Under the pieces are notes generated by a model, which ran no database searches, was not told where the DNA came from, and saw nothing but the letters and a program-made list of their open reading frames with translations. Below are positions 16,924 to 27,055 of a DNA stretch of 64,000 bases, piece after piece. The position numbers and the translations under genes were made by a program. Origin of the DNA: Croceivirga radicis. Lineage in GTDB: Bacteria > Bacteroidota > Bacteroidia > Flavobacteriales > Flavobacteriaceae. The stretch spans positions 124,001-188,000 of the forward strand of contig NZ_MTBC01000006.1 of NCBI RefSeq assembly GCF_002072105.2, read 5' to 3'. Each line of letters begins with the position of its first letter. Positions within the stretch are counted from its first letter, which is position 1.

Positions 16924-16955
16924 TTAGGTCAGTTTCTCACTATTTGTACATTTAC
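16924..16955 (+). promoter_or_regulatory. Putative promoter of the arginine leader and operon
   Basis: TTA at 16924-16926, a 20-nt spacer and TACATTTAC at 16947-16955 match the Bacteroidota -33/-7 pattern (TTG-N19-TAnnTTTG) with G to A at the last base. The predicted transcript start falls a few bases before the leader ATG at 16963, so the leader mRNA would have almost no 5' untranslated region. Confidence 0.5.
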
Positions 16956-16962
16956 ATCAACA

Positions 16963-17052
16963 ATGAAAGAACAAAGACACATACCAGTATCTAGAAACGC
17001 GAGCATCCCGTCTCCCGTTCGTCCTTTCTTTACACGCCGCCGTCGCCCGTAA
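16963..17052 (+). CDS. Arginine-rich leader peptide (29 aa), candidate attenuator of the arginine operon
   Basis: The ORF ATG AAA GAA CAA AGA CAC ... ends CGC CGC CGT CGC CCG TAA. The 29-residue product has 7 Arg, with four in a row just before the last residue (FFTRRRRP at the end). It sits between a promoter-like element and the GNAT-argG-argC... operon and is followed by two hairpins. Runs of the regulated amino acid near the stop of a short ORF are the hallmark of ribosome-mediated attenuation, as in his, thr and trp leaders. Three of the four consecutive Arg codons are CGC, while AGA and CGT are common in neighbouring genes. The ORF is certain as sequence, its translation and regulatory role inferred. 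Confidence 0.8.
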   Translation: MKEQRHIPVSRNASIPSPVRPFFTRRRRP

Positions 17053-17092
17053 GGGTGCAATTCTATTATTGGGATTAGGTGAGTCCAATCCC
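17044..17092 (+). promoter_or_regulatory. Two hairpins after the arginine leader ORF
   Basis: Hairpin A: CGCCC (17044-17048), loop GTAA (17049-17052, a GNRA-type tetraloop overlapping the leader stop), GGGTG (17053-17057), a 5-bp stem with one G-U pair. Hairpin B spans 17071-17092: GGGATT pairs with AATCCC and, after a bulged A at 17077, GG (17078-17079) pairs with CC (17085-17086), loop 17080-17084. A ribosome stalled on the four Arg codons would cover the left arm of A. No T-run follows B directly, so it is not a standard intrinsic terminator. A Rho-dependent or translational mechanism is possible. Confidence 0.55.
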
Positions 17093-17142
17093 GTATTTCA
17101 CAGCAAACAAATTCATTTTTAAATTTAATTCATACGCCAACG

Positions 17143-17760
17143 ATGAAAATTGTTGTAGCCAACGCATCGCATTTACAATATGCAACTATTATTAGCGAGA
17201 CTATTACAGACTCTGCCAAGGTTCGCGGTACGGGTATAGCCAAACGTACACCAGAATATATTGCGCAACGTCTTAGAAATGGCAACGCTATCATTGCCTT
17301 AGATGGTGATAAATTTGCTGGCTTCTGCTATATAGAAGTTTGGGGCAACAAAGACTTTGTGGCCAATTCTGGTCTTATTGTGCACCCAGACTATAGAGGC
17401 GAAGGCCTTGCCAGCAAGATAAAACAGCGCATTTTTGAATTATCCCGAGAAAAATTCCCAGACGCCAAAATTTTTGGTATTACCACGGGGCTTGCGGTAA
17501 TGAAAATGAATTATGCCTTGGGTTATAAGCCGGTTACTTTTTCTGAATTAACAGACGACCCAGAATTCTGGAAAGGGTGCCAAACTTGCAAAAATTTTGA
17601 CATTCTAACGCGTACGGAACGCAAAATGTGTTTGTGTACCGGCATGTTATATGATCCACTGGCAAAAGAAAACCAAAAACATAAAAACCTAAATAACAAA
17701 GCATTTGAACGTCTTAAAAGTATTAAGGACAAAATGCTAGTAAAGAAGAAAGAAAAATGA
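17143..17760 (+). CDS. GNAT acetyltransferase at head of arginine operon, candidate N-acylglutamate synthase
   Basis: The 205-aa protein has a GNAT fold: FAGFCYIEVW, SGLIVHPDYRGEGLASKIK (acetyl-CoA loop, R/QxxGxG/A type, about residues 86-103) and IFGITTGLAVMKMNYALGYKP. A four-Cys stretch follows (CQTCKNF... KMCLCTGM, about residues 146-170), which could bind metal and is unusual for a GNAT. No classical ArgA or ArgJ is in the operon. As first gene, overlapping argG by 4 nt (ATGA), it is the best candidate for the N-acetyl- or N-succinylglutamate-forming step. That assignment is by context. Confidence 0.78.
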   Translation: MKIVVANASHLQYATIISETITDSAKVRGTGIAKRTPEYIAQRLRNGNAIIALDGDKFAGFCYIEVWGNKDFVANSGLIVHPDYRGEGLASKIKQRIFELSREKFPDAKIFGITTGLAVMKMNYALGYKPVTFSELTDDPEFWKGCQTCKNFDILTRTERKMCLCTGMLYDPLAKENQKHKNLNNKAFERLKSIKDKMLVKKKEK

Positions 17761-18938
17761 AAAAACTTGTATTGGCTTATAGTGGCGGTTTAGATACATC
17801 TTATTGCGCCATGAATTTATCTAAAGAGCATGGTTTTGAAGTACACGCCGTAAGCGTTAACACAGGTGGTTTTTCACCTGAAGAAATTAAAACCATAGAA
17901 GAAAAAGCCTTGGCTTTAGGGGCTAGCACCTACACTTCTATAGATGCCGTACAGAATTTTTATGATAAAGTGGTTAAATACCTCATTTTTGGCAATGTCC
18001 TTAGAAACAACACCTATCCACTTTCTGTAAGTGCAGAACGTATTGTACAAGCGGTAGAAATTGTAGAACACGCCAAAAAAATAGGAGCTAAATATATTGC
18101 TCATGGTAGTACCGGAGCGGGTAACGACCAAGTACGTTTTGATATGATTTTTCAAACGCTTGCTCCTGAAATTGAAATTATAACTCCTATTAGAGACAAT
18201 AAACTCGCAAGAGAAGAAGAGATTGCTTATTTACAAGCCAATGGGGTAGATTATTCTTGGGAAAAAGCAAAATATTCAATCAACAGGGGACTTTGGGGTA
18301 CATCTGTAGGCGGTGAAGAAACCTTGACCAGTGAAAAACCTTTACCAGATAGTGCTTACCCTAGCCAACTAAAAGAAAAAGAACCTACACAAGTAAGTCT
18401 TTCTTTTGAAAAAGGCGAATTGGTAGCGATTAATGGCGAGAAGGATGCGCCCGTAGCTAATATTGAAAAGTTAGAAGCTATTGCCAACAAATATGCCATC
18501 GGTAGGGACATTCACGTGGGTGACACCATCATCGGAATTAAAGGTAGGGTTGGTTTTGAAGCAGCTGCACCATTAATTATCTTAAAAGCACACCATTTGC
18601 TAGAGAAACACACCTTGAGTAAGTGGCAGCAATTTCAAAAAGAACAGTTGGGCAACTTCTATGGTATGTTGTTGCACGAAGGCAACTACCTAGACGAAGT
18701 GATGCGCAACATAGAAGCTTTTTTAACTGATACGCAGAAGAACGTTACGGGCGAGGTATTTGTTAGCTTGTATCCTTTCCAATTTAGATTAGACGGAATT
18801 AAATCACCCAACGATTTAATGAATGCCTCTTTTGGCAGCTATGGCGAAATGAACAAAGGTTGGACAGCTGATGATGCAAAGGGTTTCATTAAAATCCTAT
18901 CCAATCCAGGTAAAATCTCTAATCACGTAAACGGCTAA
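17757..18938 (+). CDS. argG: Argininosuccinate synthase
   Basis: The 393-aa protein has the ATP pyrophosphatase P-loop LAYSGGLDTSYC at the N-terminus and the conserved HGSTGAGNDQVRF. It condenses citrulline and aspartate to argininosuccinate with ATP cleavage to AMP and PPi, the penultimate step of arginine synthesis. The length is typical of the family. It is coupled to the GNAT gene and followed by an unusual 243-bp spacer before argC, the largest gap inside the operon. Confidence 0.96.
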   Translation: MKKLVLAYSGGLDTSYCAMNLSKEHGFEVHAVSVNTGGFSPEEIKTIEEKALALGASTYTSIDAVQNFYDKVVKYLIFGNVLRNNTYPLSVSAERIVQAVEIVEHAKKIGAKYIAHGSTGAGNDQVRFDMIFQTLAPEIEIITPIRDNKLAREEEIAYLQANGVDYSWEKAKYSINRGLWGTSVGGEETLTSEKPLPDSAYPSQLKEKEPTQVSLSFEKGELVAINGEKDAPVANIEKLEAIANKYAIGRDIHVGDTIIGIKGRVGFEAAAPLIILKAHHLLEKHTLSKWQQFQKEQLGNFYGMLLHEGNYLDEVMRNIEAFLTDTQKNVTGEVFVSLYPFQFRLDGIKSPNDLMNASFGSYGEMNKGWTADDAKGFIKILSNPGKISNHVNG

Positions 18939-19181
18939 ATTCCATGAGAACAATCTTTATACGCAGTATAAAATCAATCATTCGTTTAGAATTTTGGAAG
19001 CCTTGGAGAAAATTTAGAATGATGAATTTGGTTTTTTCGATGTTCGAAAAAAATACCTCGTATAAAGTGTCTTTTCTTTTGGTTCGTTTGCTTTGGACAA
19101 GCAAGGAAAATGAACAGCTAAAATTACAGCATATCATTCTAGGAAATAATAAAGACCCAATGACTCAAAATACAATTTATA
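18939..19181 (+). other. argG-argC spacer with a perfect AT-rich hairpin and a doubtful 81-codon ORF
   Basis: Most joints in this operon are tight, but here 243 bp separate argG and argC. It contains a 9-bp perfect inverted repeat, TTTTTTCGA (19032-19040), tgt, TCGAAAAAA (19044-19052). An ORF of 81 codons (18944-19189, MRTIFIRSIKSII...) runs through it and overlaps the argC start by 8 nt; its composition (many Arg, Trp, Phe) looks non-coding and I recognise no family. It may be a small protein, an internal regulatory or RNA-processing site, or decayed sequence. Confidence 0.35.
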
Positions 19182-20156
19182 ATGGCTAAAATTGGAATAA
19201 TAGGAGGTTCTGGTTACACAGGAGGTGAGTTAATTCGCCTGCTATTAAACCATAGTGATGTTACTATAGATTTTGTATACAGCACTACCAGAGCTGGTAA
19301 AAAAATTAGTAGTGCCCATTCGGATTTAATTGGCGCTACAGACCTTACTTTTACGGGTGAGGTTAATACCCAGGTTGATGTGGTATTCTTGTGCTTAGGA
19401 CATGGAAATTCTAGCAACTTTTTAAAGGAGCATAAGTTTTCAGAAGAAACGGTGATTATTGACTTGAGTAACGATTTTAGGCTTCAAGCAGATGCTACAT
19501 TTCAAGGTAGAACCTATGTTTATGGCTTACCTGAACTGAACAAAGAGGCGATTAAAAAAACAGATGCCTTGGCTAATCCAGGCTGTTTTGCCACCGCCAT
19601 TCAATTGGGATTATTGCCCTTGGCAAAAGCCGGTGTGCTACAAGAAGATATTCATGTAAATGCGGTAACGGGCAGCACTGGTGCTGGTGTAAAACCAGGG
19701 GACACCACCCATTTTAGCTGGCGAAACAACAACGTAAGTTGGTACAAACCCTTTACTCATCAACACTTAGGAGAAATTGGGGAGAGCTTAAATTCATTTG
19801 GCAATCCTACAGGTAAAATTTATTTTTTACCCAATCGTGGTAATTTTACTAGAGGCATATTGGCTACAACCTATACCAAATTCAATGGTAGTGCGGAAGA
19901 AGCAAAAAGTCTATTTACAGATTTTTACCAGGAGGCCAAATTTACCCAAGTAGTAGATGAACCCATACACTTAAAACAAGTGGTAAATACCAATAATTGC
20001 CATATTCACTTACACAAACATGATGATATCTTATTGGTAACCTCTGCTATAGACAACCTATTAAAAGGCGCATCTGGACAAGCAGTACAAAACATGAATT
20101 TAATGCTAGGCTTTAAAGAATCTAAAGGATTAAAATTAAAGGCAGGCGTATTTTAA
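19182..20156 (+). CDS. argC: N-acetyl-gamma-glutamyl-phosphate reductase
   Basis: The 324-aa protein has the NADP-binding GIIGGSGYTGGELIRLL and the catalytic NPGCFATA (Cys nucleophile). It reduces N-acyl-glutamyl phosphate to the semialdehyde, the third step of arginine synthesis. The ATG at 19182 sits directly before the Rossmann motif. The length is on the short side of the family (about 310-350). It is followed 23 nt later by proC. Confidence 0.96.
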   Translation: MAKIGIIGGSGYTGGELIRLLLNHSDVTIDFVYSTTRAGKKISSAHSDLIGATDLTFTGEVNTQVDVVFLCLGHGNSSNFLKEHKFSEETVIIDLSNDFRLQADATFQGRTYVYGLPELNKEAIKKTDALANPGCFATAIQLGLLPLAKAGVLQEDIHVNAVTGSTGAGVKPGDTTHFSWRNNNVSWYKPFTHQHLGEIGESLNSFGNPTGKIYFLPNRGNFTRGILATTYTKFNGSAEEAKSLFTDFYQEAKFTQVVDEPIHLKQVVNTNNCHIHLHKHDDILLVTSAIDNLLKGASGQAVQNMNLMLGFKESKGLKLKAGVF

Positions 20157-20179
20157 AAACCAAACCGTAAAACTTTACC

Positions 20180-20974
20180 ATGAAAATTGCAATTATAGGA
20201 ACCGGGAACTTGGGTCAATCTATTGCCAATGGCATTCTAAATTCTAATGGTGCAACCAGTATGTACCTTACCAAACGTAATCCTGAAAAATTAAAGCATT
20301 TTGAAGATTACGGTAATGTAACCGTTACGGCTAGCAACGAAGAAGCGGTAAACAATTCGGATATTTTAATTTTTGCCGTGCAACCAGGTCATTTTGAAGC
20401 CATTTTGTACGACGTTAAAGACCAACTTACTGAAAAACATGTGGTAATTAGTGTAATTACCGGCTTTCCAATTTCCAGAATTGAGTCTATCATTGGAGCA
20501 GATAAATACATATTACGTTGTATGCCCAACACCGCTATTTCCGTAGGCAAATCCATGACTTGTATTTGTAGTAACGGCGTTGGTAAAAAACGAGTAGACT
20601 TGGCCAAGGCCATTTTTAATAGAATGGGACATACCTTGGAAATTCCAGAAGAGCAAATGCAAGCGGCAACCGTTATTTGTGCCAGTGGCATTGCTTTTTG
20701 GATGCGTTTAATACGCGCTACCACACAAGGTGCCATACAATTGGGATTCGAATCTAAGGAAGCGCAAGAATTGGCCATGCATACCTGTAACGGCGCCGCA
20801 GCTTTATTAATTGAAACCGGCAACCATCCGGAGCAAGAAATAGACCGTGTAACCACACCCAAAGGTTGTACTATAGAAGGTTTGAATGAAATGGAACATC
20901 AGGGATTGAGCTCTTCCCTAATCCAAGGTATTGTAAGCTCTTACAAGAAAATTAGCGACATAAAAAACAACTAG
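20180..20974 (+). CDS. proC: Pyrroline-5-carboxylate reductase
   Basis: The 264-aa protein has the NAD(P) motif IAIIGTGNLGQSIANGIL, RCMPNTAISVGKSMT and the C-terminal VTTPKGCTIEGLNEME, the P5CR signature (TxGGxT-like region). It reduces P5C to proline, the last proline step. Its presence between argC and argD makes this a joint arginine/proline operon. P5C is formed from glutamate semialdehyde, and the kinase (proB) is two genes downstream, but no proA is present. Confidence 0.94.
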   Translation: MKIAIIGTGNLGQSIANGILNSNGATSMYLTKRNPEKLKHFEDYGNVTVTASNEEAVNNSDILIFAVQPGHFEAILYDVKDQLTEKHVVISVITGFPISRIESIIGADKYILRCMPNTAISVGKSMTCICSNGVGKKRVDLAKAIFNRMGHTLEIPEEQMQAATVICASGIAFWMRLIRATTQGAIQLGFESKEAQELAMHTCNGAAALLIETGNHPEQEIDRVTTPKGCTIEGLNEMEHQGLSSSLIQGIVSSYKKISDIKNN

Positions 20975-21014
20975 ACTTAGGCTATACTACCAAGTAACTA
21001 GAAAAACCAATAAC

Positions 21015-22139
21015 ATGAAATTATTTGATGTTTACCCGTTATATGATGTTACCCCTGTAAGTGCAAAAGGCATTGAGGTGATTGATGATAAGGGTCAAAA
21101 ATATTACGATTTTTACGGCGGCCATGCCGTGATTTCCATAGGGCATTCCCACCCACATTATGTAAATATGCTTACCGACCAATTGCAACAGATAGGTTTT
21201 TATAGTAACTCTATAAAAAATCCATTACAAGAAGAGTTAGCAAATAAATTAGGCCAGCTCTCTGGTTGTGAAGATTACAACTTATTCTTATGCAATTCTG
21301 GAGCAGAAGCGAATGAGAATGCCTTGAAAATGGCATCTTTCCATACTGGAAAATCCAAGGTCTTGGCCTTTAAAAAAGCCTTTCATGGGCGTACCTCAGC
21401 TGCAGTGGCCACAACGGACAATCCAAAAATCAACGCGCCTATTAATCAACAGCAAAAGGTAACTTTTATTGATTTTAACGATGCTGAAAGCCTGAAAAAA
21501 GAACTAGCTTCTGGTGACTATTGTGCGGTTATTTTAGAAGCCATACAAGGTGTTGGCGGTTTGGATGAACCTACTACCGAATTTTACCAGCTTATTCAAA
21601 ATGAATGTAAAAACCATGGTGTAGTGCTTATTGCAGACGAGGTGCAGGCCGGTTTTGGTAGAAGTGGTAAATTCTTTGGGTTTCAACACCACAACATACA
21701 ACCAGATATTATCTCTATCGCCAAAGGTATGGGTAATGGGTTTCCCGTAGGTGGCATCTTAATTCATGAAGATATTAAGGCTTCTTATGGTTTACTAGGC
21801 ACCACTTTTGGTGGAAACCACCTTGCTTGTGCTGCAACCCTAGCGGTTCTAGAAGTAATTGAAAAAGAAAACCTATTGGCTAACGCCGAAGCTATGGGAA
21901 CATACTTCACAGCTGAGGCAGCCAAAATTCCACAAGTAAAAAAGGTAAAAGGTAGAGGGTTAATGTTAGGCCTCGAGTTTGATTTTGAGGTAGCGGAACT
22001 TCGCAAGAAACTTATTTTTAATCAGCATGTATTTACTGGTGGCGCAGCCAATAAACATGTACTTCGATTTTTACCTGCCTTAAACATTGGCAAACCAGAA
22101 ATAGACCTGTTCTTTAACGCCCTTAAAGCGGAATTGTAG
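21015..22139 (+). CDS. argD: N-acylornithine aminotransferase (class III PLP aminotransferase)
   Basis: The 374-aa PLP enzyme has YDFYGGHAVISIGHSHP near the N-terminus, LCNSGAEANENALK (phosphate cup), VILEAIQGVGG, LIADEVQAGFGRSG and the PLP lysine in ISIAKGMGNGFPVGG. It converts N-acylglutamate semialdehyde to N-acylornithine with glutamate as donor. Position after argC/proC and before proB, argF' and argB supports ArgD over other class III aminotransferases. The next gene starts 2 nt after its stop. Confidence 0.93.
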   Translation: MKLFDVYPLYDVTPVSAKGIEVIDDKGQKYYDFYGGHAVISIGHSHPHYVNMLTDQLQQIGFYSNSIKNPLQEELANKLGQLSGCEDYNLFLCNSGAEANENALKMASFHTGKSKVLAFKKAFHGRTSAAVATTDNPKINAPINQQQKVTFIDFNDAESLKKELASGDYCAVILEAIQGVGGLDEPTTEFYQLIQNECKNHGVVLIADEVQAGFGRSGKFFGFQHHNIQPDIISIAKGMGNGFPVGGILIHEDIKASYGLLGTTFGGNHLACAATLAVLEVIEKENLLANAEAMGTYFTAEAAKIPQVKKVKGRGLMLGLEFDFEVAELRKKLIFNQHVFTGGAANKHVLRFLPALNIGKPEIDLFFNALKAEL

Positions 22140-22140
22140 C

Positions 22141-22905
22141 ATGAAAAAGCGCGTTCTCATCAAAATTGGTTCCAATACGCTGACCAAAGAAACAGACCAA
22201 ATATCCCGCGGTAAAATAGAGGATATTGGCAGGCAATTGGCGGCATTAAAAGACCAATACGAATTTATCTTGGTCTGCTCTGGGGCCATTGCAACTGCAA
22301 AGCAGTTTGTACAATTAGAACATACTGGTAAAGACATTAATGTTAAACAAGCTTTAGCAGCCATTGGGCAGCCCCGATTAATGCATATTTTTCAGGAGAA
22401 TTTTAGAGAATTGGGCTTGTTTACTTCGCAATGCTTGTTTTCGTATTCGGATTTACAGGATGATAAATCGCGCCAAAACATAAAAAATACCATAGATGTT
22501 TTATTACAAAACAACGTAGTACCCATCATCAATGAGAACGACACCGTAGCCACAGAGGAGATTAAGTTTGGTGATAATGACAAGCTAGCTGCCTACACCG
22601 CGGCTTTTTTAGAGGCAGATTTACTTATAATCGCTACCAATACCAATGGCGTGTATAGCAAAGCATCCATGGAAAAAGGAACACCAGAAACCATTTTAGA
22701 AGTACGTGATTTGCAAGCCATGCAAAAGGAAATTAGTACCACAAAATCCTCTCACGGAACAGGCGGTATGCAATCAAAAATAGAAGCTTCTGCAATTGCG
22801 CAAGAAGCACATATAGAAACTTGGATAGTGAACGGCTTATTGGATAATTTTATCCTAGATAGTTTTAATGCTACGCAGCCTTTCACCAAAATAATAGCAA
22901 CATAA
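22141..22905 (+). CDS. proB: Glutamate 5-kinase without PUA domain
   Basis: The 254-aa amino-acid kinase has RVLIKIGSNTLT, LVCSGAIATA, NENDTVATEEIKFGDNDKLAA and SSHGTGGMQSKIEAS. It lacks the C-terminal PUA domain of E. coli ProB (367 aa), a truncation seen in several phyla. It phosphorylates glutamate for proline synthesis. The product gamma-glutamyl phosphate needs ProA (glutamate-5-semialdehyde dehydrogenase), which many related operons have next to proB but which is absent here. It is separated from argD and argF' by 2 nt each. Confidence 0.93.
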   Translation: MKKRVLIKIGSNTLTKETDQISRGKIEDIGRQLAALKDQYEFILVCSGAIATAKQFVQLEHTGKDINVKQALAAIGQPRLMHIFQENFRELGLFTSQCLFSYSDLQDDKSRQNIKNTIDVLLQNNVVPIINENDTVATEEIKFGDNDKLAAYTAAFLEADLLIIATNTNGVYSKASMEKGTPETILEVRDLQAMQKEISTTKSSHGTGGMQSKIEASAIAQEAHIETWIVNGLLDNFILDSFNATQPFTKIIAT

Positions 22906-22907
22906 CA

Positions 22908-23846
22908 ATGAAGCATTACTTACAAATCAACGATTTAGACAGTTTACAACAAACGGTACAAGAAGCTATCGAACTAAAAAAAGAACCCACCCAGTTTAAA
23001 AAACTAGGTGCAGGCAAAACCATTTGCTTGTTGTTCTTTAACAATAGCCTACGTACCCGTTTAAGCACACAAAAAGCTGCCATAAATTTAGGATTGGATA
23101 CCATTGTTATGAATTTTGGCAGTGAAGGGTGGCAATTAGAGTTTGAAGAAGGTGCCGTTATGGACCAAGGCAAAGCAGAACACGTAAAAGAAGCGGCACA
23201 AGTGGTGAGCCAATACGCAGATATCGTGGCTATACGCGCTTTTGCCGGTTTAACGGATAAAGAGGCCGACGAGGCCGAGTTGGTTTTAAACGCCTTTAAA
23301 AAATATGCGAACATTCCCGTGGTAAATATGGAAAGCTCTGTAGGCCATCCTCTACAAGCATTGGCAGATGCCATTACCTTGGAAGAAAACAAAACCGCTC
23401 AAAAACCTAAAGTAGTTTTGTCTTGGGCACCACATCCACGCGCTTTGCCGCATGCGGTTGCCAATAGTTTTGTAGCTATGATGAAATTGCAAGATGCCGA
23501 TTTTGTAATTACCCATCCAGAGGGATATGAATTAAACCCGGAAGTAACAAAAGGATGTAAAATTGTTCACGACCAGGAAGAAGCACTTAAAAATGCGAAT
23601 TTTGTATACGTTAAAAACTGGAGCAATTACCAAGATTATGGTCAAGTAAAAAACACCGATAGCAATTGGATGATGACCAAAGAAAAATTGGGTAAGGCCA
23701 AGTTTATGCATTGTTTACCGGTACGTAGAAATGTAGTGGTAGAAGATGCTGTTATGGATAGTGACCAAAGCCTATGTATGGAACAGGCAAACAATAGAAC
23801 TTTTGCTGCACAGGTGGTGCTAAAGCAACTATTAAAAGACCTATAA
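22908..23846 (+). CDS. argF': N-acylornithine carbamoyltransferase (AOTC/SOTC family, ArgF')
   Basis: The 312-aa transcarbamylase has FNNSLRTRLSTQKAA, the STRT-type carbamoyl-phosphate loop with the first Ser/Thr variation (SLRT) of the acyl-ornithine enzymes, HPLQALADAIT, WAPHPRALPHAV and HCLPVRRN. It carbamoylates N-acetyl- or N-succinylornithine, not ornithine. From memory of the Bacteroides fragilis enzyme, residue 90 is Pro in succinyl-specific and Glu in acetyl-specific enzymes. Here residue 90 is Ala (QGKAEHV), so the acyl group cannot be stated. The argE product would remove it from N-acylcitrulline. Confidence 0.93.
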   Translation: MKHYLQINDLDSLQQTVQEAIELKKEPTQFKKLGAGKTICLLFFNNSLRTRLSTQKAAINLGLDTIVMNFGSEGWQLEFEEGAVMDQGKAEHVKEAAQVVSQYADIVAIRAFAGLTDKEADEAELVLNAFKKYANIPVVNMESSVGHPLQALADAITLEENKTAQKPKVVLSWAPHPRALPHAVANSFVAMMKLQDADFVITHPEGYELNPEVTKGCKIVHDQEEALKNANFVYVKNWSNYQDYGQVKNTDSNWMMTKEKLGKAKFMHCLPVRRNVVVEDAVMDSDQSLCMEQANNRTFAAQVVLKQLLKDL

Positions 23847-23865
23847 GCCTACACAAAAAATTTAA

Positions 23866-24642
23866 ATGGAAGATTTAAGCATAGTTAAAATTGGTGGTAA
23901 TATTATTGAGGATAGCGATGCGCTAGACCAGTTCCTTACCCTATTTGCACAATTGCCTGGTCATAAAGTTTTGGTGCATGGCGGTGGCAAAAAGGCAACA
24001 CAGTTGTTACCCCAGTTAGGTATAGAACCAAAAATGGTAAACGGCCGCCGTATTACCGATGCGGCGACGCTAGAGGTGGTTACCATGGTTTACGGTGGAC
24101 TCGTAAATAAAAACGTGGTGGCACAATTACAGGCCAAAGGCATAAATGCCATTGGGTTAAGCGGTGCGGATGCAAATACCATACAAGCACAAAAACGCTC
24201 CGTTACAGAAATTGATTACGGGTTTGCTGGTGATGTTAAAGGAGTGGATGGAGAAACCATTGGTAAATTAATACACATAGGTTTAACTCCCGTATTTTGT
24301 GCACTAACGCATAATAAAAAAGGGCAATTGCTAAACACAAATGCAGATACCATTACCGCCGAAGTAGCTATTGGTCTTAGCAACCATTTTAACACGACCA
24401 TCTATTATTGTTTTGAACTAGATGGGGTCTTGGAAGACATCAACAGAAAAGATTCTGTTATTAAGCATATTAATACAACTACTTACGATACCTTGGTTGC
24501 AAAAGGCATTATTGTAGACGGTATGTTGCCCAAGATGCATAATTGTTTTCACGCCTTAAAAAATGGGGTGAAACAAGTAAAAATTGGAAATTTAGGAATG
24601 TTTCAAACAGCAAACACCAACTATACAACATTGGTTTTATGA
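23866..24642 (+). CDS. argB: N-acetylglutamate kinase
   Basis: The 258-aa amino-acid kinase has VKIGGNIIEDSDAL, HGGGKKATQLLPQL, MVNGRRITDAATLEVVTMVYGG and a C-terminal VDGMLPKMHN. RRITD with a downstream GGLVNKN is the N-acylglutamate-binding signature. It phosphorylates N-acylglutamate, the second step of the pathway. The length (258) is that of non-feedback-inhibited ArgB, lacking the N-terminal helix of arginine-inhibited hexameric enzymes, so arginine control may rest on transcription or attenuation. It overlaps argE by 4 nt. Confidence 0.95.
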   Translation: MEDLSIVKIGGNIIEDSDALDQFLTLFAQLPGHKVLVHGGGKKATQLLPQLGIEPKMVNGRRITDAATLEVVTMVYGGLVNKNVVAQLQAKGINAIGLSGADANTIQAQKRSVTEIDYGFAGDVKGVDGETIGKLIHIGLTPVFCALTHNKKGQLLNTNADTITAEVAIGLSNHFNTTIYYCFELDGVLEDINRKDSVIKHINTTTYDTLVAKGIIVDGMLPKMHNCFHALKNGVKQVKIGNLGMFQTANTNYTTLVL

Positions 24643-25706
24643 AGTTAGATAAAAAAGCCTTGGGCACAGAAGCCCTAGAATTACTAAAACAATTAATCGC
24701 TATACCTTCTTTTTCTGAAGAGGAAGATGAAACGGCTACGTTAATAGACAATTGGTTAAAAGGTCATGGGGTGGCAACCAAAAGACAGTACAATAATATA
24801 TATGCTTTTAACAAGTATTATGATGAGAACAAACCCAACTTGTTGTTGAATTCCCATCACGATACGGTTAAACCAAACAAAGCCTATACCAAAGACCCTT
24901 TTCATCCGCATATAGAAGACGGCAAATTATACGGATTAGGGAGTAATGATGCTGGTGGTGCTCTGTGTTCCTTGTTGGCCACGTTCGTGCATTTTTATGA
25001 GCGAGAAGATTTGAGCTATAACATTATCATGAGTGCCACGGCAGAAGAAGAAGATGCTGGCGATAAAAGTATTTCGGCCTTGTTACCCATTCTACCTGAG
25101 ATTGATGTGGCCATAGTGGGTGAGCCAACCCAAATGCAATTGGCTATTGCGGAAAAAGGCTTGGTAGTTTTTGAAGGCACCGTCGAAGGCACTCCCTCGC
25201 ACGCCGCCCACCCAAACGATAATAATGCCATTTACAATACCATACAAGTGTTGGAATGGTTTAAAAACTACCAATTTGAAAAGGTATCTGATGTATTAGG
25301 CCCGGTAAAAATGACGGTTACCCAAATTAAAGCGGGTAGCCAACATAATGTAGTACCCGCTCAAGTTGATTTAGTTATAGATACCCGTGTTAACGATTGT
25401 TATACCAATGAAGAAATCAATGAAATGCTACAGCGTGAAGCTCCTTGCAAGTTAAGACCACGGTCATTGAATTTAAGCAGTAGTTCTATACCAATTGAGC
25501 ATCCATTGGTGCAATCTGGTATTGCCTTGGGTAGGGAAACTTATGGTAGCCCTACACTATCAGACCAAGCGGAACTTAGCTGTCAATCCTTAAAATTAGG
25601 CCCTGGCTATAGCCCTAGAAGTCATTCAGCAGATGAGTTTATCTATGTGGATGAAGTGTATGAAGGGGTACAACTTTATATAGATATTTTAGAGGGATTT
25701 TTGTAA
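24639..25706 (+). CDS. argE: M20 family N-acyl-citrulline/ornithine deacylase (ArgE)
   Basis: From the ATG at 24639 (ATGA overlap with argB) the protein has 355 aa. A longer frame starting at 24543 lies inside argB and is not used. Metal ligands of the M20 family are visible: LLNSHHDTVKP (His, Asp), LGSNDAGGAL (bridging Asp), SATAEEEDAG (catalytic Glu pair), VGEPTQ and PRSHSADEFI (C-terminal His). In this pathway the acylated substrate is N-acylcitrulline, because argF' acts on acylornithine. Relatives were also called DapE. The operon makes ArgE most likely. Confidence 0.92.
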   Translation: MKLDKKALGTEALELLKQLIAIPSFSEEEDETATLIDNWLKGHGVATKRQYNNIYAFNKYYDENKPNLLLNSHHDTVKPNKAYTKDPFHPHIEDGKLYGLGSNDAGGALCSLLATFVHFYEREDLSYNIIMSATAEEEDAGDKSISALLPILPEIDVAIVGEPTQMQLAIAEKGLVVFEGTVEGTPSHAAHPNDNNAIYNTIQVLEWFKNYQFEKVSDVLGPVKMTVTQIKAGSQHNVVPAQVDLVIDTRVNDCYTNEEINEMLQREAPCKLRPRSLNLSSSSIPIEHPLVQSGIALGRETYGSPTLSDQAELSCQSLKLGPGYSPRSHSADEFIYVDEVYEGVQLYIDILEGFL

Positions 25707-25774
25707 CTCTCTAATAAAAAACATAGTACTAGTTAATCACTCATAACTACTAACTAAAATCTAATAACTAGAAA

Positions 25775-27055
25775 ATGAAACTCTGGGACAAAGGATTCAG
25801 TACCGATAAAAAAATAGACACATTCACTGTTGGTAACGACAGGGAGCTCGATTTACTATTGGCCAAGTATGATGTAATCGCCTCCACAGCGCATGCAAAA
25901 ATGTTGGCCAAAGTAGGGTTGATATCTGATGAGGAAGCGAAGCTTTTGGTCAAAGAATTGACGGCTATTGGTAAATCCATAGAAAAAGGAAATTTTACCA
26001 TAGAAGACGATTTTGAGGATATGCACTCAAAGATAGAGTACATTCTTACCGAAAAATTGGGAGATGTAGGTAAAAAAATTCATACCGCACGGTCAAGAAA
26101 CGACCAAGTTTTAGTTGCCATGCAGTTGTATTTAAAGGCAGAACTATCAGAAATTAAAATTCAGACCAAACAGCTGTTTGATTTACTGATGAAACTGGCC
26201 GAGAAACATCAAAAAACCCTTTTGCCTGGTTATACACATTTGCAGATTGCCATGCCATCTTCTTTTGGATTGTGGTTTTCGGCCTATGCGGAGAGTTTAA
26301 TAGACGATTTGTACTTTGTAGATGCTGCGTATAAAATTGCAGACCAAAATCCGTTAGGCAGCGCAGCCGGCTATGGAAGCTCTTTTCCTATAGATAGAAG
26401 TTTTACAACAGCAGAATTGGATTTTGCTACACAAAAGTACAACGTGGTGGCAGCTCAAATGGGACGTGGAAAAGTAGAAAAAGCAACGGCTTTTGGCATT
26501 TCTAGTTTAGGAGCCACCTTGTCTAAAATGGCCATGGATATTACGCTGTATATGAGCCAAAATTTCAATTTTATCTCTTTTCCAAATGAGCTTACTACGG
26601 GTAGTAGTATAATGCCACACAAGAAGAATCCGGATGTATTTGAACTAATTCGTGCCAAATGCAATAAAGTACAAGCTACGCCCAATCAGTTAATCCTAAT
26701 TATGAATAATTTACCAAGTGGATATCATAGGGATTTGCAGTTGGTAAAGGAAGTAATTGTACCTGCTATTCAGGATATGAAAGCCTGTTTGGAAATGCTC
26801 CACTTTAGTTTAAAAGAAATAAAAGTGAATGCGGACATTATAACGGACACCAAGTACGATTACCTGTTTAGCGTAGATACGTTAAATGAGATGGTTAAAA
26901 GCGGTATGCCCTTTAGGGATGCTTACAAAACCATGGGCAAGGCCATAGAAAATGGCAATTTTAAACCCAAAAGAGATATAAAGCACACTCATGAAGGTAG
27001 TTTGGGAAATCTGTGTTTAGAAGAAATAAAAAAGAAGATGGAAGCTATTGCCTAA
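25775..27055 (+). CDS. argH: Argininosuccinate lyase
   Basis: The 426-aa protein has HTARSRNDQV, the GSSIMPHKKNPD signature with the catalytic Ser on the flexible loop, and the expected helical core. It cleaves argininosuccinate to arginine and fumarate, the last step. It starts 68 nt after argE, the second largest gap in the operon. Its stop overlaps by 4 nt the stop of the convergent EEP-family gene. It completes the arginine pathway within one operon. Confidence 0.96.
   Translation: MKLWDKGFSTDKKIDTFTVGNDRELDLLLAKYDVIASTAHAKMLAKVGLISDEEAKLLVKELTAIGKSIEKGNFTIEDDFEDMHSKIEYILTEKLGDVGKKIHTARSRNDQVLVAMQLYLKAELSEIKIQTKQLFDLLMKLAEKHQKTLLPGYTHLQIAMPSSFGLWFSAYAESLIDDLYFVDAAYKIADQNPLGSAAGYGSSFPIDRSFTTAELDFATQKYNVVAAQMGRGKVEKATAFGISSLGATLSKMAMDITLYMSQNFNFISFPNELTTGSSIMPHKKNPDVFELIRAKCNKVQATPNQLILIMNNLPSGYHRDLQLVKEVIVPAIQDMKACLEMLHFSLKEIKVNADIITDTKYDYLFSVDTLNEMVKSGMPFRDAYKTMGKAIENGNFKPKRDIKHTHEGSLGNLCLEEIKKKMEAIA

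Follow-up and report, generated by a model that had tools for sequence, protein, structure and literature searches.

A putative ribosome-mediated arginine sensor, mostly lacking an intrinsic terminator, in front of the arginine genes of Croceivirga radicis

How does a marine member of the Flavobacteriaceae adjust its arginine genes to the arginine supply, and does the short, arginine-rich reading frame in front of these genes in Croceivirga radicis take part in this? Arginine operons are best known under the control of the ArgR repressor, of T-boxes or, in fungi, of the arginine attenuator peptide. ArgR (PF01316) was not found in any of 60 Flavobacteriales genomes, including the 3.6-Mb genome of C. 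radicis, and the same profile detected the protein in 9 of 14 control genomes, Bacteroides included. In the window, by which we mean the whole 64-kb stretch of DNA that was analysed, no Rfam family reached its gathering score, and near the leader just three eukaryotic families appeared at E values up to 10, which is chance level.

A first-pass annotation had read from this DNA a 29-codon ORF with seven Arg codons, among them CGC CGC CGT CGC followed by CCG TAA, located between a promoter-like element and the arginine genes, with one hairpin (A, CGCCC-GTAA-GGGTG) straddling the leader stop and a second one (B) behind it. All these features were recovered as described (Table 1), and the comparison it had suggested, for a conserved short ORF, clustered Arg codons and covarying hairpins, was clearly in its favour: at the level of sequence, the conservation of leader ORF, Arg codons and hairpin B was confirmed to exceed chance by far. 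We propose that the region probably acts in cis on the arg operon, as a sensor of arginine that works through the translating ribosome and for the most part does without an intrinsic terminator.

Table 1. Features of the leader region and the genes behind it (positions in the window)
Feature	Position	Strand	Remarks
Promoter-like -7 element	16947-16954	+	TACATTTA; 8 nt before the leader ATG; near match to TAnnTTTG
Leader ORF	16963-17052	+	29 sense codons, MKEQRHIPVSRNASIPSPVRPFFTRRRRP-stop; ATG at 16963, TAA at 17050-17052; 7 Arg; ORF reading, frame kept in relatives
Arg4-Pro codon run	17035-17049	+	CGC CGC CGT CGC CCG, codons 25-29; adjoins the stop
Hairpin A	17044-17057	+	CGCCC (17044-17048)-GUAA-GGGUG (17053-17057); leader stop UAA in the loop
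Linker A-B	17058-17070	+	start of A to tip of B 31-36 nt in 148/148 loci
Hairpin B	17071-17092	+	GGGATT-A-GG-TGAGT-CC-AATCCC; covarying stem
Spacer, hairpin B to first gene	17093-17142	+	AU-rich, G-poor; window copy shows no hairpin with U-tract
GNAT N-acetyltransferase (first gene)	17143-17760	+	PF00583, PF13508
argG, argC, proC, argD, proB, argF', argB, ArgE/DapE-type deacylase, argH	17757-27055	+	argF', N-acetylornithine carbamoyltransferase

The leader reading frame and its arginine codons

The ten same-strand genes downstream of the leader (17143-27055), which start 90 nt behind its end, are taken as one operon from their order and strand. The gap of 243 nt between argG and argC (18939-19181) holds no ORF of at least 100 aa and may be a remnant or regulatory DNA. 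Near its C-terminus the GNAT protein carries a cysteine cluster, GCQTCKN...RKMCLCTGMLYDP, perhaps a metal site.

The -7 consensus of Bacteroidota promoters is TAnnTTTG. Exact copies ending 6-9 nt before the ATG were present in 45 of 118 ATG leaders, compared to 3.6 expected from shuffles, and a TTGTAC-TTT block is kept across 68 non-redundant named relatives. A promoter-like element so near to the ATG suggests a very short 5' end.

A query with the 29-residue peptide against 199 family genomes gave matches in 20 of them at E ≤1, mostly noise, and the downstream gene was used as anchor instead. With the first gene, 198 relatives were searched, of which 106 match at E ≤1e-20, 78 of them in the family (hand count), and the upstream DNA was collected for all 78 family loci. 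Set 1 comprises 69 of these (L001, L003, L005 and L021 being additional loci from genomes that the set otherwise includes), with the exclusion of L025, whose leader is identical to that of L026, and of the late-fetched L103, L115 and L119-L124. Set 2 comprises 79 of 80 named loci, the window's own leader (L197) being excluded; strains of Zobellia, Maribacter and Croceivirga are among the named carriers of the element. Judged by the first gene, 'Flavobacterium sp. ASW18X' (100%) and Croceivirga lutea (88%) are the closest named relatives. Since the two sets share species, the 148 loci are not independent; they represent 139 distinct regions, and 106 are less than 80% identical. Because the counts are anchored on the tip of hairpin B, this tip is present in all 148 loci by construction. 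It occurs in 80 of 80 named loci and throughout set 1 except for L079 and L090, whose tip variants were caught with widened patterns. Among the eight late loci it is present in L119, L121, L122 and L123 and absent in L103, L115, L120 and L124, so that four of the 78 family loci having the first gene are without it.

Upstream of the hairpin, the leader frame runs without a stop for 20 codons or more in 147 of the 148 loci, compared to 32 and 78 for the other two frames, and in 106 of the 106 non-redundant loci (<80% identical), compared to 25 and 47. An in-frame ATG within an open stretch of 15 or more codons was found in 125 of 148 loci for the leader frame vs. 1 and 6 for the others. The codon preceding the hairpin codon encodes Arg in 144 of 148 loci (102 of 106 non-redundant ones). 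This codon lies outside hairpin A and is spelled CGT, CGC, CGA or CGG; since it varies at the third base, it is the amino acid that is conserved and not a string of bases. Over the final 14 codons of the leader, counted in 68 of 69 loci (the pattern did not catch L079), Arg is encoded 144 times by CGC, 119 times by CGT and 19 times by other codons. CGY accounts for 263 of these 282 Arg codons; in the first genes of those loci it accounts for 144 of 552, and AGA is the commonest Arg codon there (226 of 552).

Pro comes next after the hairpin codon in 146 of 148 loci, then a stop in 140, and the whole RRP is present in 142. The TnaC peptide has a similar end, and a nascent-chain arrest of the TnaC/SpeFL kind, in which the RRP-stop peptide would sense free arginine and hold the ribosome at the stop, would be in line with the Pro behind the Arg run and with the VRPF or ISPF that recurs ahead of this run within the window's clade (by eye). 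However, the peptide is not conserved family-wide outside the Arg run and Pro (by eye), the stop directly behind the Arg-Pro codons is missing in 8 of 148 leaders, and the Pro codon doubles as part of hairpin A. We therefore regard such an arrest as unlikely.

Hairpins A and B and the route to termination

The fold energy of the window's leader is ordinary (z -0.84; 44 of 200 shuffles fold equally well). Since shuffled sequences fold as well, the folding of a single sequence provides no evidence and conservation counts instead. In alignment A1, which spans 67 loci without the near-copies L031 and L032, 93.9% of the cells of A and B are paired compared to 87.3% after shuffling, and 53 cells are changed on both sides compared to 15.1; neither value was reached in any of 500 shuffles. 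The number of further pair types is unremarkable (18 vs. 16.0; 55 of 500 shuffles), and pairing falls to 33-58% if the partners are slid by 1 to 3 columns. Nearly all of the covariation signal stems from B, with both-sided changes in 7 of its 8 pairs. In hairpin A, 93.6% of the cells are paired and a single pair covaries (CG to AU in L052 and L059); as A is nearly invariant, its support lies in the conservation of its non-coding 3' arm. RNAalifold, with the structure not supplied, finds B plus two pairs of A.

The tip of hairpin B consists of a bulged A (17077), GG/CC and the pentaloop UGAGU (17080-17084). This tip, GGUGNGUCC, is near-invariant in relatives (bulged A, GG-UGNGU-CC), although the stem is freely variable, and its AGGUG is a candidate anti-Shine-Dalgarno complement. 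Hairpin A, about 10-12 nt ahead of B, could act as an RNA polymerase pause hairpin. The diverged loci L103, L106, L107 and L109 also show, by eye, a stem resembling A and a hairpin resembling B whose loop is UACGU or UCCGU.

Three further ideas on the hairpins were discarded. A docking of the GUAA tetraloop of A on the GG/CC of B is at odds with alignment A1 (by eye): the GG/CC of B is retained next to A loops reading CUAG or UUAA, and the three GA/UC changes in B co-occur with GUAA (L053, L071) and UUA (L084). For a pairing of the 5' arm CGCC with the GGUG of the B tip, a matching double change was found in L084 alone and the helix is absent from the folding scan. A mimicry of the tRNA-Arg anticodon by B was suggested by the UUACGUA loop of L106, L107 and L109, but the main family reads GAG, GUG or GCG there.

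The first-pass annotation had also stated that hairpin B has no adjacent T-run. This is true of the copy in the window and of 142 of the 148 loci; in the other six (L078, L081, L082, L087, L090 and L092), a direct test detected a U-rich tail behind B. A general terminator scan, which allowed loops of up to 16 nt, was combined with this direct test and detected the C. radicis his leader as positive control, gave no site in 127 of 148 loci, a site at A in 17, at B in 1 and elsewhere in 4 (one also at A). Terminator-like sites were thus present in 21 of 148 loci vs. 11 of 740 shuffled sequences. A narrower scan with loops of ≤10 nt, which is blind to B in part of the family, found 0 of 148 at B and 16 at A. 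In some lineages hairpin A with a U-rich linker thus occurs above chance, and it may terminate there.

A search for a mutually exclusive antiterminator in 106 non-redundant leaders folded with A masked revealed no alternative helix. When a ribosome footprint of assumed limits, placed either on the Arg codons or on the stop, was masked in the 106 leaders, A was lost or weakened and B remained; B forms in every ribosome state modelled. Since masking leaves B and no competing helix appears, the ribosome signal would pass by another route than a choice between helices.

These results bear on a classical attenuator of the trp/his type, in which A pauses, B (or A) terminates intrinsically and an antiterminator competes. 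Leaders of trp and his operons have a hairpin near the leader stop and regulatory codons, a resemblance that counts in favour of this reading together with the U-rich tails at B and at A. Moreover, the same genome carries in front of hisG (L196) the leader MKRNHVHHHTFTIAQAR-stop, followed by GACCCGTTTGAGCATTCAAACGGG-T7, which by its sequence is a classical attenuator with a U-tract and indicates that the organism uses leader attenuation. Against it stand the 142 loci in which B has no U-tract and the absence of a conserved alternative helix, and a classical attenuator in front of the arg genes has, like the nascent-chain arrest, a low probability.

For a hairpin without T-run, a Rho-dependent or a translational mechanism had initially been offered. 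Rho would be the likeliest effector, and the translational variant is less likely, since the spacing between B and the first gene varies and that gene can be exchanged for another. The C/G content behind B is 0.176/0.064, compared to 0.170/0.118 in a control before 21 ORFs of the window, and this G-poor stretch fits Rho weakly. Under translational control, as in erm leaders, translation of the leader would open or close the start of the first gene. The spacing of 57-71 nt between B tip and start in 142 of 148 loci would suit such a mechanism, but it amounts to 84-253 nt in the other six and to 116, 225 and 247 nt in the loci L136, L156 and L181, respectively, and neither A nor B shows conserved pairing with the start of the first gene in the 106 non-redundant leaders. 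In L136 and L156 an intact element is followed by the gene of a different protein in place of the usual first gene (GNAT by Pfam in L156, no hit in L136) and then by argG; the element is linked to the operon rather than to the first gene. Translational control therefore appears rather improbable.

That A and B form the binding site of a trans-acting factor (RNA-binding protein or elongation factor), with the ORF tuning access, is highly improbable: the near-invariant tip on a freely varying stem and the hairpins retained in the four diverged loci favour it, but the conservation of Arg codons and frame indicates that translation matters, no candidate factor was found, and the product of the first gene is unlikely to be this factor because B persists when that gene is exchanged.

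Distribution of the leader and neighbouring elements

With covariance model R1, matches at E ≤0.01 were obtained in 191 of 299 family genomes, including at least six weak ones that are false. Within 29 genomes that were followed up, mostly for second or weak matches, L186-L189, L192 and L193 are not at arg genes; the weak matches L186, L188, L189 and L192-L195 fall inside other genes and L187 is without an adjoining first gene. The C. radicis genome has one match with 78.4 bits, and the next one (L160, 17.2 bits) looks like coding sequence. Three other exact copies of TAGGTGNGTCC in this genome were dismissed, as they are in the control range (3 hits with the reversed pattern) and show no such hairpin by eye.

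Among the family genomes with the first gene that were also searched with the model, a hand tally gave 66 of 69 with a match, a weak one in G081; the exceptions are G033, G065 and G069. At least 20 family genomes are without the first gene and none of them is among the model matches; 18 of these 20 lack argG, and the remaining two, G017 and G051, have a diverged leader and element X (see below). Five genomes of the genus g128 possess argG and the first gene and have no model match; three carry a different leader peptide without Arg run (by eye), and in two none was seen. In a sample of the class, 9 of 395 genomes match at E ≤1e-4, every one in Flavobacteriaceae. The diverged loci with similar hairpins, L103 from within the family and L106, L107 and L109 from a sister family, lie outside the model. 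The f5 and f16 loci that were inspected by eye have no such leader.

Different leader ORFs precede the same genes in other lineages (L099-L102 and L287-L289), with peptides such as MKQVNKYTP...ERPVLTIGIG... or MNKISLHITSLSRTNSPITSPEVRTLSL and no Arg run (by eye). In a subset of the family a second Arg-rich leader, such as MKNLKNKIRCTVPGFPVRFRRRY, lies further upstream, with RRR near the stop and often a stop-spanning hairpin (by eye; L053, L060-L063, L067, L069, L074-L077, L081-L083, L085, L086, L088, L089 and similar loci). It is located about 220-310 nt before the first gene, in some loci farther, so that some genomes have tandem arginine leaders. An exchange of the first arg gene was observed with argG seen downstream in L136, L156, L291 and L292, and with that gene alone read in L300-L302, L306-L310 and L312-L314; a replaced acetyltransferase step is possible.

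A separate element, X (AACGAAAGGGGCUNNNGCCGACGAUUUAGAG), was found in 18 of 397 family genomes from 11 genera, with one copy each and no hit for the reversed pattern (17 exact matches, 1 with one mismatch; L298-L315). As UUAACGAAAGGGGCUNNNGCCGACGAUUUAGAGUUA it is nearly invariant and in 18 of 18 genomes sits directly behind a promoter-like site, ahead of arg leader and first gene; argG downstream was read in four. The outer helix UAAC/GUUA shows no variation; UAU/AUA lengthens it in 13 genomes and UAG/CUA with a bulged U in 5 (the latter by eye). In the inner GGC-UNNN-GCC the loop is free, and the internal loop is constant, an outcome towards which the search pattern is biased. The B tip is lost and the first gene is of a second type in 13 of the 18 genomes (by eye). 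Element X is absent from the C. radicis genome, and six X-bearing loci scanned against Rfam gave no match. It looks like a small aptamer or a protein site.

A proposed arginine switch and its relation to known leaders

It is very likely that the leader responds to arginine, and probable that it does so by acting on transcription. We propose that transcription probably starts almost at the leader ATG and that the ribosome translating the leader would meet the CGY Arg run just ahead of the stop inside hairpin A. If charged Arg-tRNA is scarce, the ribosome would wait on the Arg run, hold A open and cover the C-rich end of the leader, and transcription would continue into the arg genes. If arginine is plentiful, the ribosome would end at RRP-stop and depart, A would fold beside B, and transcription would be cut ahead of the first gene. 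Hairpin B, with its bulged A and GG-UGNGU-CC, would function as a fixed recognition or pausing module. As B mostly lacks a U-tract and the search for a competing pairing gave none, the step that halts transcription would most likely depend on Rho, an effector that we name with some reserve. A stalled ribosome hiding the C-rich leader end from Rho would fit the anatomy. Since a terminating ribosome would cover A as well, A alone cannot distinguish a ribosome that is stalled from one at the stop. A bolder and more doubtful reading is that of a terminator-less class of amino-acid leaders, with Arg codons set against a stop in a hairpin loop and a B tip read by a dedicated factor, be it Rho, an elongation factor or an RNA-binding protein; where the B tip is lost, the aptamer-like X may head the same mRNA, so that two unrelated RNA sensors would serve it.

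With his/trp-type leaders, including that of C. radicis itself, the arg leader shares an ORF with codons for the end product. However, the his/trp type has a U-tract terminator and competing helices, whereas in the arg leader a U-rich tail behind B was detected in just 6 of 148 loci and no such helices were found. According to the passages on orf34 in the account of Salmonella speF, pausing at two Arg codons senses arginine, translation of the leader prevents Rho termination, and arginine acts via mRNA structure and RNase G decay (PMC6386406). As far as these passages go, orf34 sets a precedent for pausing on Arg codons as well as for control by Rho, two layers that are separate in Salmonella. 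Both leaders are short ORFs with consecutive Arg codons, and both have a hairpin shortly after the leader stop; neither has an intrinsic terminator, which for the arg leader applies to the window copy and to most loci. In contrast to the arg leader, orf34 targets ornithine decarboxylase, with speF located 516 nt from the transcription start, has its Arg pair at codons 12-13, and differs in peptide and RNA (PMC6386406, same passages).

For Flavobacterium psychrophilum, which belongs to the same bacterial family, leader-peptide attenuators before amino-acid operons are mentioned in general terms and structured elements before pheA and hisG are named; section 19 of that article names no arg leader, and 'arginine' occurs once in its main text, about cyanophycin, while the supplementary tables may list an arg leader (PMC9723704). 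Excerpts of another report list Bacteroid-trp RNA (RF01692), as likely cis-regulatory, and Flavo-1 (RF01705) among structured RNA candidates of Bacteroidota (PMC2864571); unlike these two, the window's leader matches no Rfam family. Leader ORF motifs in the relevant part of a further study concern other amino acids and lie outside Bacteroidota (PMC8632094). In the PMC literature, with subscription papers and supplements outside the scope of the search, we found no described arginine leader in Bacteroidota.

By means of this leader, a mostly aquatic family in which ArgR was not found would use the position of a ribosome on CGY codons. The element is compact and single in its genome, and hairpin B would be a clean bait for a factor. 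As a U-tract terminator is generally absent, one may ask how, in Bacteroidota, the translation of a leader becomes a decision about transcription.
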